This document shows positions 50,806 through 58,105 of a DNA stretch of 64,000 nt, one piece after another. Where the stretch lies: the NCBI RefSeq assembly GCF_013113715.1, contig NZ_CP053344.1:3534001-3598000 (forward strand). Direction: 5' to 3'. Each line of letters begins with the position of its first letter. The first letter of the stretch is position 1. The translations under genes were made by a program, and so were the position numbers. This DNA comes from Herbiconiux sp. SALV-R1 (GTDB lineage Bacteria; Actinomycetota; Actinomycetes; Actinomycetales; Microbacteriaceae). The notes beneath the pieces were generated by a model that saw only the letters and a program-made list of their open reading frames with translations, made no database searches and was not told where the DNA came from.

Positions 50806-50871
50806 CCGATCGACCCGTCACGATCGGCCCTTTCAGGGCCCGCAGAGGGCGGATCGTGACGGGTCGATCGG
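50806..50871. repeat. 66-bp palindrome with nested hairpin
   Basis: Perfect 20-bp arms: CGATCGACCCGTCACGATC (50807-50825) plus a flanking C at 50806 pair with 50852-50871. The 26-base loop contains GGCCC-TTTCA-GGGCC (50826-50840), so a branched fold is possible. It lies between the stop of the acyl-CoA synthetase gene and the start of the flavoprotein gene, both on the minus strand. Terminator, RNA-stability element or small repeat family are all possible. Confidence 0.75.
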
Positions 50872-52700: not shown

Positions 52701-53396
52701 GTGCCCACCACCCTGCCCAAGTCCACGCGCGCCCCGCGCCGCGACGCCGCCGAGAACCGCGAGGCGATCGTGGCGGCGGCCGCCACCGTCTTCCGCCACG
52801 ACCCCGAGTCGTCGCTCGACGCGGTCGCCGCCGAGGCCGGACTCAGCCGCCGCGCCCTCTACGGCCACTTCGCCTCCCGCGACCAGCTGCTCGCCGAACT
52901 CCTCACGCGCGGCGCCGCCCGCATCTCGGGAGCGCTGGCCGGCGTGCACGACGACGACCCGCGCATCCATCTCGCCCTCATCGGCGCGGCCCTCTGGCAG
53001 GAGGTGCAGCAGATGCGCGTGCTCGCCCAGCTCGCGGTGCACGGCCCGCTCGAGCGCACCGTCGCCGAGGCCCTGCTACCCGTGCGCACTTCGGTGCGCG
53101 ACGCCGTGCGGCGGGGTGTCGACGACGGATGCTTCCGCCCCGACATCCCCGTCGAGAGCATCGCGCGTCTGGTGGAGGAAGCCGCGATCGCGGTGCTCGA
53201 CGAGGCGGTGCGCACCGACCTCGACGAGGAGTCGGGACGACGACTCGTGATGTCGGTGGGGCTGTCGGTGGCCGGGCTGTCCTGGCGCGAGACGGATGCG
53301 CTGCTCGACTCGCTGCAGCTCCCCACCACCGCACGACCCACGACCCCCGGCCGGAAGACCCCCGGCCCCACGACCCCCGAGGCGCACACCGCATGA
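52701..53396 (+). CDS. TetR-family regulator
   Basis: 231 residues. HTH: AVAAEAGLSRRALYGHFASRDQLLAELL. A helical ligand domain follows and the C-terminus is a Pro/Thr-rich tail (TTARPTTPGRKTPGPTT). GTG start. Overlaps the pseudo-ABC gene by 4 bp and shares a promoter region with the acyl-CoA synthetase gene, so it probably controls both directions and senses a fatty acid or acyl-CoA. Confidence 0.88.
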   Translation: MPTTLPKSTRAPRRDAAENREAIVAAAATVFRHDPESSLDAVAAEAGLSRRALYGHFASRDQLLAELLTRGAARISGALAGVHDDDPRIHLALIGAALWQEVQQMRVLAQLAVHGPLERTVAEALLPVRTSVRDAVRRGVDDGCFRPDIPVESIARLVEEAAIAVLDEAVRTDLDEESGRRLVMSVGLSVAGLSWRETDALLDSLQLPTTARPTTPGRKTPGPTTPEAHTA

Positions 53397-54301
53397 GAAT
53401 CGAAGCCATCGCCGTGAGCAAGGGCTCGCACGGCGCCCCCCTCCCCGAGACCAGCTTCGTCGTCGACAGCGGCGAGGTGACGATCGTCGAGGCCGAGACC
53501 GGCGACCGCCCGGTCGTGCTCGCCCTCATCGCATCGGGGCGCATGGTTCCCGACTCGGGCACCATCACGCTCGACGGCTCGGCCGAACCCGCGCTCCTGC
53601 GCGAACGCATCGCCCTCGTCGACGCCCCCGAGATCAGCGAGCCCCCCGCCGACATCAGGCTCTCGACGGCCCTGCGCGAGGAGCTCTCGTACGCCGGCCG
53701 CTCGACGAGCCGTTCGAGCATCCTGCAGACCATCACGGATGCGCTCCACACCAACCACGAACAGGGCCTCACCCCCGAGACCCGCTCCGCCGCCCAGCTC
53801 GCCTCGCTGCCCATGCGCGACGTTCCCCCGGCACTCCGCATCCGCCTCCTCGCCGAACTCGCCCTCTCCCGCCCCGGCGTCGAGGCCCTCGTGCTCTCCT
53901 CCCCCGACCGCCACGGCGGCCTCCCCACCGACTGGTACACCATCGCCCTCGACCTCGCCTCCCGCCACCACCCCCTCCTCATCATCTGCGGCGCTCCCTC
54001 CGCCGCCCTCCTCCCCACCCACCAGGAGGCGGAGGCCGCCACCCCCACCACCCCACACCCGGCGGAGCTCCCCGAACCGACGTGGCTACCGAACGTTGCC
54101 CTCCCCCCAGCGCCGGCTGCGGGTGAAGGGGATGAGGGCTCCGGTGTGGCGGGCGTCTACGGGCAGAGCCCTCATCCCCTTCACCCGCAGCGACCCCGAG
54201 CAACATCGACGACACCGACAACCCAGACGACCCCCGCAACCCCCACGGCACCCACGCCCCCCACCCCGCGACACACCACACCCCAGGACCCCGACGCATG
54301 A
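53393..54301 (+). CDS. Degenerate ABC-ATPase-like protein with palindromic-element insert
   Basis: 302 residues. The layout follows an ABC ATPase (IAVSKGSHGAPLPETSFVVDSGEVTIVEA, SGRMVPDSGTITLDG), but Walker A is missing (VEAETGDRPVV), no LSGGQ signature is seen, and Walker B is reduced (VEALVLSSPD). It is therefore unlikely to hydrolyse ATP. Residues 242-266 are encoded by the 76-bp palindromic element, and the last 35 residues are Pro/Thr-rich. ATG overlaps the TetR stop and the YhgE-like start overlaps its own stop, both by 4 bp. It may be a non-catalytic partner of the membrane protein. Confidence 0.7.
   Translation: MRIEAIAVSKGSHGAPLPETSFVVDSGEVTIVEAETGDRPVVLALIASGRMVPDSGTITLDGSAEPALLRERIALVDAPEISEPPADIRLSTALREELSYAGRSTSRSSILQTITDALHTNHEQGLTPETRSAAQLASLPMRDVPPALRIRLLAELALSRPGVEALVLSSPDRHGGLPTDWYTIALDLASRHHPLLIICGAPSAALLPTHQEAEAATPTTPHPAELPEPTWLPNVALPPAPAAGEGDEGSGVAGVYGQSPHPLHPQRPRATSTTPTTQTTPATPTAPTPPTPRHTTPQDPDA
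54116..54191 (+). repeat. 76-bp intragenic palindromic element, copy 1
   Basis: Left arm 54116-54141 (begins GCTGCGGGTGAAGGGG) and right arm 54166-54191 are perfect 26-bp inverted repeats; the 24-base centre is 54142-54165. Read in the host gene frame it gives AAGEGDEGSGVAG then VYGQSPHPLHPQ. The whole 76 bp is identical to the reverse complement of 57449-57524. Not a terminator in position, because it lies 110 bases before the host stop codon. Confidence 0.9.
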
Positions 54302-56277
54302 AACTCCTCCACCTCGTCGCCACCGAACTCCGCCGCCTCACCGCCACGGGCATGGCCCGCCTCGCCCTGGTCGCCCTCATGCTCGTGCCGGTGCTCTACG
54401 CCGGCCTCTACCTCTGGGCCAACAACGACCCCTACGGCAACCTCAAAGACGTCCCGGTCGCCCTGGTGGTCGAAGACACCGGATCGACCCTCGACGGCAA
54501 GGCCGTGAACTACGGCGACGACGTGAAGGAGCAGCTGCTCGACGACGCCTCCGTGGGCTGGAAGGTCACGACCGCAGCCGAGGCAGCAGAGGGTGTGCGC
54601 GACGGCGAGTTCGACTTCATCCTGACCCTCGGCCCCGACTTCTCGAAGGCGCTCACCTCGGCCGCCGGAGACACCCCCGAGCAGGCCGTGGTGGAGCTCA
54701 CGACGAACGACACGAACAGCTTCCTCGCCACGACCATCGCTGGCCAGGTCGCCGAGAAGGTGCGGGCGAGCATCACCGAGCGCGTCGGCAAGGAGGCGGC
54801 CCTGTCGCTGCTGAACGGCTTCGCCACGGTGCGCAGCAACCTCATCGAAGCCGTCGACGGAGCCACGAAGCTCGCCGACGGCACGACGAGCGCGGCCGAT
54901 GGCGCGAAGACCCTCGCCGACGGCACCGCCACCGCGTCGGCGGGCGCACTCTCACTCGCACAGGGCGCGGGCTCCGCGAACGTCGGCGCCCAGCAGCTCG
55001 ACTCGGGCCTTCAGCAGCTGCGCGCCGGATCGGCCGACCTCCCTGCCCAGGCGAATCAGCTCAACGACGGTGCCCAGCAGATCGCCGCGGGCAACGCGCA
55101 GCTCTCGGCGACGGCGAACGAGGTGGCGAGCACGGTTCAGGATGCGGTGAACCAGGTTCCCGCCGCCCGCGCCGACATCGTGGCCATCCTCGACGCCTCG
55201 AGCCTCACGCCCGAGCAGAAGGCCGCCGTGCTGGCGCGCCTCGACCAGGTCGGCACCGCGATCGACGACGGCAACACGAAGGTGCAGCAGGCGAACGCGC
55301 AGATCGGCGCGCTCGCCGCCGGCAGCGCGCAGCTCGCCGCGGGCACGCAGCAGCTCGCCGACAACGCCCCCACCCTCACGAACGGCATCGCCCAGGCGGC
55401 CGACGGCTCCTCGCAACTGAGCGGCGGGCTGCAGCAGCTCGCCCAGGGCTCCCTCGACCTGAGCAACGGCATGCAGCAGCTCGTCGACGGCAGCAGCGCG
55501 CTCAGCACGGGGCTGAACACCGTGAACGACGGCGCCGGCACCCTCCGCGACGGACTCGCCAGCGGCCTCGACGACGTGCCGAACCAGACCGCCGACCAGC
55601 GCGAGGCCTCGGCCCAGACCATCTCCGACCCGGTCGCCCTCGACACCAGCGCGGTCACCAAGGCGAGCAACTACGGCGCCGGCATGGCCCCGTTCTTCAT
55701 CAGCCTCGCGGCCTGGATCGGCATCTACGCCCTGTTCCTCATCGTCAAGCCGCTCTCCCGGCGCGCGGTCACCGCGATGAAGAGGCCGTTCCTCGTCGCC
55801 ACCGCGGGGTGGGCGACGCCGGCCGTACTCGGGGCGATCCAGATGGCTGCCGTGTTCGGCATCATCACCGTCGCCCTCGGGTACCAGGTCGAGCATCCGT
55901 GGGGCATGTTCGGCTTCATGGCGCTCACCTCGGCGACGTTCGCGACGATCATCCTGGCGCTCAACATCCTGCTCGGCAGTGTGGGGCAGTTCCTCGGGCT
56001 CGTGCTCATGGTGCTGCAGCTCGTGACCGCCGGAGGCACCTTCCCCTGGCAGACCCTGCCCGGCCCGCTACAGGTGCTGCATCAGATCCTGCCGATGAGT
56101 CACGCGGTCGACGGCATCCGTCAGCTCATGTACGGCGGCAACCTGTCGCTGGCGGGGGCGGATGCGGGGGCCCTGTTCTTCTGGCTGGTCGGCGCCCTGC
56201 TGGTGTCGTACCTCGGAACGCGTCGGCTCACGCGGCACCGCACCCTGCGCGACCTGCGGCCGTCGCTGATCGGCTGA
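54298..56277 (+). CDS. YhgE/Pip-family membrane protein
   Basis: 659 residues. One membrane helix near the N-terminus (ARLALVALMLVPVLYAGLYLW), a long extracellular region with repeated LADGT..LADGA and LSxG/LxNG patterns (about residues 180-430) forming helical/coiled structure, then about five membrane helices at the C-terminus. Family includes Bacillus YhgE, Lactococcus phage-infection protein Pip and the T7 secretion protein EsaA. Role is probably export or cell-envelope related. Coupled to the pseudo-ABC gene. Confidence 0.87.
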   Translation: MKLLHLVATELRRLTATGMARLALVALMLVPVLYAGLYLWANNDPYGNLKDVPVALVVEDTGSTLDGKAVNYGDDVKEQLLDDASVGWKVTTAAEAAEGVRDGEFDFILTLGPDFSKALTSAAGDTPEQAVVELTTNDTNSFLATTIAGQVAEKVRASITERVGKEAALSLLNGFATVRSNLIEAVDGATKLADGTTSAADGAKTLADGTATASAGALSLAQGAGSANVGAQQLDSGLQQLRAGSADLPAQANQLNDGAQQIAAGNAQLSATANEVASTVQDAVNQVPAARADIVAILDASSLTPEQKAAVLARLDQVGTAIDDGNTKVQQANAQIGALAAGSAQLAAGTQQLADNAPTLTNGIAQAADGSSQLSGGLQQLAQGSLDLSNGMQQLVDGSSALSTGLNTVNDGAGTLRDGLASGLDDVPNQTADQREASAQTISDPVALDTSAVTKASNYGAGMAPFFISLAAWIGIYALFLIVKPLSRRAVTAMKRPFLVATAGWATPAVLGAIQMAAVFGIITVALGYQVEHPWGMFGFMALTSATFATIILALNILLGSVGQFLGLVLMVLQLVTAGGTFPWQTLPGPLQVLHQILPMSHAVDGIRQLMYGGNLSLAGADAGALFFWLVGALLVSYLGTRRLTRHRTLRDLRPSLIG

Positions 56278-56333
56278 GGCCGAACGGATGCGCGGCTCGC
56301 CCCCGCGCATCCGCATCGCCGCCGCGCATCCGC

Positions 56334-58016
56334 TCAGTTCACGGTCACGCTGTGCGCATCCCACCCGGTGGCGCCGTCGGGCGCCGGGGGCGCCTGGTCG
56401 GAGGTCTGCGTGTAGCCCGAGGCGTCGGTGGCGCGCACCGACAAGGTGTGGCTGCCGGAGGTGGCCTCCCACGGGTAGAGCCACTGCACCCAGGTGTCGG
56501 GGCCGGAGGTCTCGGCGAGGCGCGCCTCCTGCCAGTCGCCGTCGTCGATGCGCACCTCGACCTTCGCGATGCCCGTGTGCTGGGCCCAGGCCACTCCGGC
56601 GACGGGCACGGTTCCGGCGGAGACGCTCGCGCCCGCCGAGGGCACGTCGATGCGCGACTCGGTCTTGATCGGGCCGAGGGCCGACCAGCCGCGCGGGGTC
56701 CAGTAGCCCTGGGCGTCGGCGAAGCGGGTGACCTCGAGCTGGATGACCCACTTCGTCGCCGACACGTAGCCGTAGAGGCCGGCGACGACCATGCGCACCG
56801 GGAATCCGTGCTCGACCGGGAGCGGCTCGCCGTTCATGCCGACGGCGAGCATCGCCACCCGGTCGGGATCGGTGAGCGCCTCGAGGGGCGACCCCGCGGT
56901 GAAGCCGTCGACACTGGTGGAGAGCACCATGTCGGCACCCTCGAGCGGCTTCGCGCGGGCGAGCAGCTCGCGAATCGGGTAGCCGAGCCACAGCGCATTT
57001 CCGATGAGGTCGCCGCCCACCTCGTTCGAGACGCAGGCGAGGGTGACGAGGTGCTCCTCGAGCGGGAGGGCGAGCAGTTCGGAGAAGCTGATCGCGACCT
57101 CCTGCTCGACCATGCCGGTGATCTTGAGCGACCAGGTGTCGGCGTTCACCTGGGGCACCTGGAGGGCGGTGTCGATGCGGTAGAAGGAGTCGTTGCCGGT
57201 GACGTAGGGGGTGATGCCGTCGACGTCGAGCGCGGCGCCTGCCGGCACCGGCTCCGCCTTCGTGGCCGCGGCGGGGAGGGCGATGGAGTCGCGGACGGCG
57301 CTGACGGCGGTGGCTGTGGCGTTCATCGAGCGGGCGATCACGCCGGCGAACACGGCTGCCACTGCGGCGATGCCGGTGGCGGTGAGGAAGCGGCGGCGGT
57401 CAACGCGGGTCGTGGGGGTTGTCTGTGGTGCGGGGGTTGTTCGGGGGCGCTGCGGGTGAAGGGGATGAGGGCTCTGCCCGTAGACGCCCGCCACACCGGA
57501 GCCCTCATCCCCTTCACCCGCAGCGCGGCCGGGGGCCGGCGCGCGGGAGGGGGAGGTGGAGGGGGATGCGGGGGTTGCGTCGAGTTCCCAGGTGCGGAGG
57601 CGGGAGATGAGGAGACGCAGCACGACGGCGCCGACGATCATGCCGAAGACGGTCGGGATGGCGGAGAACGGGGTCGCGCCGGCGCGTGTCGTGACGGCGA
57701 GGACGGCGACGCCCGAGACGACGACGAGAACGATGATGCCGAGCGGCGGGCGGCGTTGCTCGAGGAGGCCGGCCGCTGCGGCGAGCGCGAGCACGACGAT
57801 GCCGAGGATGACGAGCAGCGCGGCCTTGTCGCCCGTGCCGAACAGCCCGATCATGACGTCTTTGACCCCTGGCGGCGCGAGGTCGATCGCCAGCGATCCC
57901 ACAGCGAACAGCGGACTCGACTCCGCGCCGACGAAGACGGCGACCACTTCGGCTGTTGCCAGCACCACTGCCGCCGACACCACCCCGGCTACCGCCGCCC
58001 ACAGCTTCGAGCTCAT
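56334..58016 (-). CDS. Membrane-anchored sulfite-oxidase-type molybdoenzyme
   Basis: 560 residues. First about 150 residues: four membrane helices. Residues 165-189 come from the palindromic element, then VDRRRFLTATGIAAVAAVFAGVIA, which resembles a twin-arginine signal but is internal. The rest is a sulfite-oxidase fold (from about 240; the Mo-ligating Cys is probably in LVTLACVSNEVGG) with a C-terminal Mo-co dimerisation domain (ASVSAGTVPVAGVAWAQHTGIAKVEVRIDDGDW). The catalytic domain should face outside the membrane. ATG 58016; TTG 58022 is also in frame. Confidence 0.82.
   Translation of the reverse strand: MSSKLWAAVAGVVSAAVVLATAEVVAVFVGAESSPLFAVGSLAIDLAPPGVKDVMIGLFGTGDKAALLVILGIVVLALAAAAGLLEQRRPPLGIIVLVVVSGVAVLAVTTRAGATPFSAIPTVFGMIVGAVVLRLLISRLRTWELDATPASPSTSPSRAPAPGRAAGEGDEGSGVAGVYGQSPHPLHPQRPRTTPAPQTTPTTRVDRRRFLTATGIAAVAAVFAGVIARSMNATATAVSAVRDSIALPAAATKAEPVPAGAALDVDGITPYVTGNDSFYRIDTALQVPQVNADTWSLKITGMVEQEVAISFSELLALPLEEHLVTLACVSNEVGGDLIGNALWLGYPIRELLARAKPLEGADMVLSTSVDGFTAGSPLEALTDPDRVAMLAVGMNGEPLPVEHGFPVRMVVAGLYGYVSATKWVIQLEVTRFADAQGYWTPRGWSALGPIKTESRIDVPSAGASVSAGTVPVAGVAWAQHTGIAKVEVRIDDGDWQEARLAETSGPDTWVQWLYPWEATSGSHTLSVRATDASGYTQTSDQAPPAPDGATGWDAHSVTVN
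57449..57524 (-). repeat. 76-bp intragenic palindromic element, copy 2
   Basis: Arms 57449-57474 and 57499-57524 match those of copy 1 exactly; the 24-base centre (57475-57498) is the exact reverse complement of the centre of copy 1. In the sense direction of its minus-strand host gene it is therefore the same sequence in the same frame, adding the same 25 residues. It sits in the linker between the membrane helices and the RR-containing segment. Confidence 0.9.
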
Positions 58017-58105
58017 GCGCAATCATAGGCTCGCCCCACTGAGCGCCCGCCGTGCGCCGCCGCGCGCATCCGTCTCGCTGGTTCGACCGGCCGGAGGTCT
58101 CGGGT

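Follow-up and report, generated by a model that had tools for sequence, protein, structure and literature searches.

How did two unrelated genes come to carry the same palindrome in the same reading frame? In the window (the whole stretch of 64,000 nucleotides that was analysed, from Herbiconiux sp. SALV-R1), the 76-bp sequence at 54116-54191 is the exact reverse complement of that at 57449-57524. As the original prediction stated, each copy has perfect 26-bp arms that flank a 24-nt centre, and both open reading frames continue through their copy and read the same 25 residues, AAGEGDEGSGVAGVYGQSPHPLHPQ. The features of the locus are as follows.

53393..54301, + strand: host gene 1, an ABC-ATPase-like ORF (resemblance only) with a low-complexity C-terminal tail
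54116..54191, + strand: element copy 1, 76 bp; its G-rich tip strand is the coding strand
54116..54141, + strand: 5' arm of copy 1
54142..54165, + strand: conserved tip of copy 1, including a small covarying C-R/Y-G hairpin
54166..54191, + strand: 3' arm of copy 1, the exact complement of the 5' arm
54192..54236, + strand: diverged 3' tail, common to copy 2
54298..56277, + strand: ABC-2 type permease gene (PF12698), between the copies and outside the element
56334..58022, - strand: host gene 2, a molybdopterin oxidoreductase (PF00174) with an N-terminal hydrophobic part; the element is in the linker before the catalytic domain
57404..57448, - strand: diverged 3' tail, common to copy 1
57449..57524, - strand: element copy 2, 76 bp, the exact reverse complement of copy 1
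57475..57498, - strand: conserved tip of copy 2

The "ABC-like" label of the first host protein is in keeping with the ABC-2 permease gene that comes next, but the protein itself has no Pfam match at E ≤ 0.001. Elsewhere in the window, positions 50806-50871 hold an adjacent inverted repeat (33-nt arms, 88% complementary) that is unlike the element.

Origin and age of the two window copies

When the 4.5-Mb genome was searched with the 76-bp sequence, the two window copies were the only full matches, and the remaining matches were weak (31 bp or less). A search of the same genome for the arm pattern, with up to three mismatches allowed, found the four arms of the two copies and nothing else. The predicted RNA fold of the element has z = -7.0, with 0 of 200 shuffles equally stable, and both copies recur in the same pair of genes in a sister species (G015); a chance origin of the palindromes is thus excluded.

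The duplicated unit reaches past the 76 bp. A repeat search reports the window pair as an inverted repeat of 132 nt at 87% identity because about 45 bp of the 3' flank are related too. Over the first 40 nt of this diverged 3' tail, 29 are identical, a score that 0.0005 of triplet shuffles reach, while the 5' flanks of the two window copies have no likeness (0.78 by triplet shuffles).

Both window copies are older than the split from G015. Between G000 and G015, the copy in the ABC linker is identical at 76/76 positions, and its adjoining flanks match at 61/100 and 61/90 (61-68%). The molybdoenzyme copy matches at 73/76 (the three changes include one compensated pair), with flanks at 70/85 and 75/88. 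The perfect identity of the copies had been taken as a sign of recent spread, and we reject this: with an unchanged ABC-linker copy beside diverged flanks and a 3' tail matching at 29/40, the identity does not date the spread. The element is constrained, at least in places. For copies in an mnhA-like antiporter gene, the element matches at 69/76 between G005 and G001, and the gene around it at 530/600 and 527/591, so there is no excess identity there. Homogenisation between the two nearby window copies may be the source of their identity.

A family of hairpins with a common tip

Among the 16 Herbiconiux genomes, the 76-bp query matched seven, often at the centre only; the genus has 17 copies in 7 of the 16. 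We then compared 29 distinct elements, which came from searching named genomes and 398 family genomes for the tip under a pairing filter. They come from Herbiconiux, Homoserinimonas, Terrimesophilobacter, Cryobacterium, and other Microbacteriaceae. A covariance model matched 39 of the 398 family genomes and 15 of 85 genera at E ≤ 1e-4; matches near this limit may be false, and some elements were missed (three genomes of genus g45 with the element fell below it). Overall, we have 79 distinct elements, all from Microbacteriaceae, with a common tip and with arms that mostly differ yet still pair. Two of 396 genomes drawn from the order matched, both of them Microbacteriaceae (the share of other families in this draw is not shown), and in the collections searched, matches with paired arms came from Microbacteriaceae only.

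Pairing of the arms goes with the tip match itself and is not a product of filtering. The 16 Herbiconiux genomes contain 16 tip matches with no more than two mismatches, and every one of these has 24-26 of 26 bases paired, versus only 10-14 of 26 for the 13 three-mismatch matches that we read. The tip search of named genomes gave 54 matches in 53 stretches: the arms are clearly paired in 18 and reach no more than 13 of 26 pairs in 35, and the remaining one, in Novosphingobium, has 16 pairs with a shifted register and was taken as chance. A tip match in G286 from the 398-genome search had no paired arms (9 of 26). Ten match places of the covariance model were left out of the reading (G007, G060, G130, G107:C49, G261:C101, three of G298, G374:C76, and G397:C259).

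At the gathering score, Rfam found only TPP and small SRP RNAs across 17 loci, away from the elements; in E-value mode, window copy 1 had 35 matches, all below gathering and mostly to microRNA families. Viral contigs gave three matches, without paired arms by eye, and no match to a second tip type; a phage search with one element from L189 gave no match. Of 11 plasmid matches, none covered more than 80% of the query, and the two that we read lie in unrelated genes. Nor did we find an earlier description of this family of short DNA hairpins: the open-licence papers searched give no account of such an element in Microbacteriaceae.

The stem evolves as paired bases. Across the 29 elements, 98.1% of 754 stem cells are paired, as compared to 60.4% after shuffling. 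Double-sided changes occur in 24 of the 26 stem pairs (260 such cells, versus 70), and the signal is lost when the register is slid. The stem is not wholly free, since four pairs (8-71, 20-59, 25-54, and 27-52) are nearly constant, at 26-28 of the 29 elements. The conserved features are a tip rich in G, approximately GG-(2-4 nt)-GG-Y-GGGC-R-UYNN-Y-GGGC-R-G, and the capacity of some 26 bases on either side to pair into one long hairpin.

The conserved tip holds GGGC-R-NNNN-Y-GGGC in 72 of the 79 distinct elements. Its R-Y pair is standard in 67 of these 72 (56.0 expected) and Watson-Crick in 56 (32.6 expected). Five of the seven elements that lack this simple motif are from g45 and have a longer hairpin in its place. 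Under a loose pattern, the four G runs are kept in all 79 elements; tips were the search key, so tip conservation is partly built in.

Mismatches in the stem are not symmetric between strands. In the set found without a structure model, the G-rich strand has 18 G.T and 3 A.C mismatches, which suggests that this is the strand that folds, as RNA or as single-stranded DNA. In a wider set, the counts are 63 G.T, 19 A.C, and 56 others (1 of the 79 elements was below the cut-off for this count); this set was picked with an RNA model, which could favour G.T. Nominal p values for the asymmetry are too small in that the elements are related.

Two orthologous sites show a reversal of the tip with no change in the inner arms beside it. 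In the acetate kinase gene, the tip runs one way in G089 and G374 and the opposite way in G202, with the inner arms kept. (G151 has two elements in its acetate kinase gene, in opposite orientations.) In a gene with lumazine-binding domains, the alignment of G089, G374, and G202 is continuous across flanks and arms, and the one reversed part is the tip of G202.

In genus g45, the element follows guaB, whose product is IMPDH (PF00478), in 8 of 9 genomes; by eye, the ninth genome has no element. Among these eight guaB-linked copies, 9 of 26 stem pairs have changed on both sides, and the tips are 94% identical. Their inheritance looks vertical, and this is also compatible with a host function.

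Sites, dispersal, and genomic context

The element is dispersed, as seen from orthologues that lack it, from shared elements at apparently non-orthologous sites, and from 11 element matches in one genome (G085). The insert is absent from the linker in 8 of 10 readable Herbiconiux orthologues of the molybdoenzyme (motif parsing failed for 4 of 14, and for 9 of 16 orthologues of the ABC-like protein), and an element is present in 3 of 15 Herbiconiux orthologues of the mnhA-like gene and absent in 12. A pair of elements from G001 and G005 share 68 bp at 97% identity, the sole match between stretches of 18 kb and 17 kb (E ≤ 1e-20), and a 2.8-kb locus of G009 has an 89-bp match to G001, also at 97%. 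The prediction of an inserted, dispersed palindrome that tolerates in-frame insertion therefore stands on genes with and without it. An old protein motif was to be recognised by diverged forms of the peptide in the same position in different genera; within Herbiconiux, the only group in which we looked, this pattern did not appear, with a reservation for G010, whose ABC-like protein has an element with other arms in the same C-terminal tail.

Among the sites compared, we found neither an exact empty site nor a target duplication, and two that first looked empty are ambiguous. The idea that one arm is copied from the native flank at insertion looked good at first for dnaX and a rocD-like gene, and we do not claim it, because by eye a remnant with a reversed tip is present at the rocD-like site of G005 and the dnaX gene of G089 has one arm amid many other repeats. 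The G005 remnant (L292, 12200-12490) is at the start of a class-III aminotransferase gene and has no complementary arms; the G001 element is intact there. The dnaX linker (a Pfam gene call; L156, 6300-6620, in G089 and L120, 3480-3760, in G374) is packed with another palindromic repeat, CTCCCTGAGG...CTCGAA; of the G374 hairpin, G089 has a single isolated arm.

Several other sites have features of their own. The N-terminal extension of the class-III aminotransferase (rocD-like) holds elements with different arms in two genera, in L175, L189, and L190 of genus g25 and in L185 of G001; L175 has a second element just upstream that is absent from L189 and L190. In the mnhA-like gene of G001 (L034, 1509-1600), the 3' arm is followed by a near-exact direct repeat of itself, which gives a second PQKLQPEP. 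In G085 (L192 and L194-L199), the element is near multi-copy DUF222-HNH genes, among another repeat (CCCTTCGACAAGCTCAGGGACCG-like). A DUF222-HNH gene, which we considered and rejected as a mobiliser, is near the element at 7 of the 9 fetched G085 loci, and a distant relative occurs at one Cryobacterium site. No gene that could mobilise the element was identified.

For genomic context, we used a set of 84 rows, in which orthologous sites are entered more than once and which leaves out two matches in G374:C50. A simple gene caller put 17 rows in genes (14 sense and 3 antisense; the reversed-tip sites of G202 account for two of the antisense rows) and 67 in intergenic regions. The in-gene count is low because the caller missed the copies in the ABC linker (L002 and L026) and in the rocD-like gene (L185); at least these three are coding on reading. 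In-frame copies occur in both window genes and in mnhA-like antiporter, amidohydrolase, acetate kinase, and class-III aminotransferase genes. The frame in the first four of these gives small residues (GVAGVYGQ or like), and other frames and orientations occur in acetate kinase and in the rocD-like gene of G001. Most relatives of the window copies are thus called intergenic. The original prediction missed this, and also that the family shares mainly its tip and that its stems change in matched pairs.

Twenty-nine of the 67 intergenic rows lie between convergent genes. For 26 of the 29, the nearer of the two stop codons is that of the gene on the opposite strand (median distances of 25.5 versus 109.5 bp), and the same holds for 20 of 22 after de-duplication by hand to one row per orthologous group (one dropped row, L182, goes against the trend). 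This placement favours a host cis-acting RNA element, a terminator or 3'-end stabiliser that follows stop codons, acts in the neighbour's mRNA, and occasionally spreads. So does the retention of the element after guaB in g45, where the extended tip on the guaB-sense strand is UUCG or UGCG in most copies, which we take to be UNCG tetraloops. Read on the G strand, the 8 nt that precede the hairpin are 25% A (mean of 84 rows), which makes U moderately common on the opposite strand. But T makes up just 8% of the 8 nt after the hairpin, and neither side of it has the U run of an intrinsic terminator in the 84 flank rows. Also, the copies inside genes, in either direction, would cut their own genes, which argues against strong termination, and the excess of G.T over A.C favours folding of the strand opposite to the one that the stop codons point to. 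We consider a host RNA element to be rather unlikely as the main explanation.

Even less probable, in our view, is a REP-type element moved by a RAYT/Y1 (HUH) transposase that acts on the folded single strand. The small size, the preference for gene 3' ends, the inverted pairs, and the strand-specific mismatches all fit such an element. REPs of the GTAG and CGTC families, as described in the accessible part of one account, combine a stem of 5-13 bp with a foot that reads GTAG or CGTC (PMC3733652), whereas the stems here are about 26 bp with covarying letters, and by eye we saw no common foot of this type in the 84 flank rows, which places the element outside the definition of a REP.

A peptide motif spread by gene duplication or by recombination between linkers would account for the 25 residues that both window genes share in one frame, which is a possible reading frame for the mnhA-like, amidohydrolase, and G010 ABC-like copies too, but this explanation is largely contradicted, and very improbable, given that 67 of 84 copies were called intergenic (at least three of them, as above, being coding), that other frames and orientations are used, and that the ABC-linker copy kept all 76 nt, third codon positions included, beside a diverged linker.

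Proposed working and relation to known systems

We think it probable that the window copies belong to a gene-less family of palindromic elements of about 70-92 nt in Microbacteriaceae that are recognised by their tip and whose stem is renewed by template switching. The folded G-rich strand, with its tip, would be recognised by a putative factor and then moved or copied. During replication, template switching inside the hairpin would re-copy one arm from the other, so that stem letters could change and stay paired and the tip could flip. Within genes, survival would be limited to copies in flexible stretches, with the sense direction the commoner one. A more specific version, which we judge somewhat less likely than not, is a self-renewing mobile hairpin: just the tip and a few stem positions are kept, template switching rewrites the rest and at times reverses the tip, and recognition is by the folded shape and the tip rather than by a terminal-repeat sequence.

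MITEs, including the terminator-like SPRITE of pneumococcus, are short, gene-less, dispersed, and hairpin-forming, and the Microbacteriaceae element is like them in each of these respects. It differs in that it has no family-wide terminal repeat sequence (the arms are related within groups and not conserved across the family) and in that no target duplication was found at the sites compared.

Template switching can make and keep perfect stems and can invert loops, according to the part of a study of microRNA and rRNA loci that was available (PMC8794818); in that study's own data, loop inversions were extremely rare. The hairpins described here resemble those loci in that double changes keep the stems paired and loops are reversed, as the model predicts (PMC8794818), but the Microbacteriaceae hairpin is itself dispersed. 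Its rewritten stems and the two reversed tips form a natural series in bacteria, by which the proposed role of template switching in keeping hairpins paired becomes directly testable.

The element has in common with REPs that both are short palindromes, with many at gene ends, some in inverted pairs, and some inside genes. To judge from the same partial source, however, a REP family is defined by its stem and foot (PMC3733652), whereas here the stem letters vary widely and pairing and tip are kept across genera, also inside protein-coding linkers.

In its behaviour, the element works like the Rickettsia palindromic elements to which it was originally compared; we propose an analogy only. The accessible text on those elements describes palindromic repeats of about 150 bp in ten families, each with a conserved peptide ORF, that sit in frame in unrelated genes and are tolerated in the product (PMC10969869). 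The Microbacteriaceae element also lies in frame in unrelated protein genes, but it is 76 bp in length, conserves mainly its tip, and has most of its copies in regions called intergenic. It adds one more bacterial group with palindromes that live in frame inside proteins.
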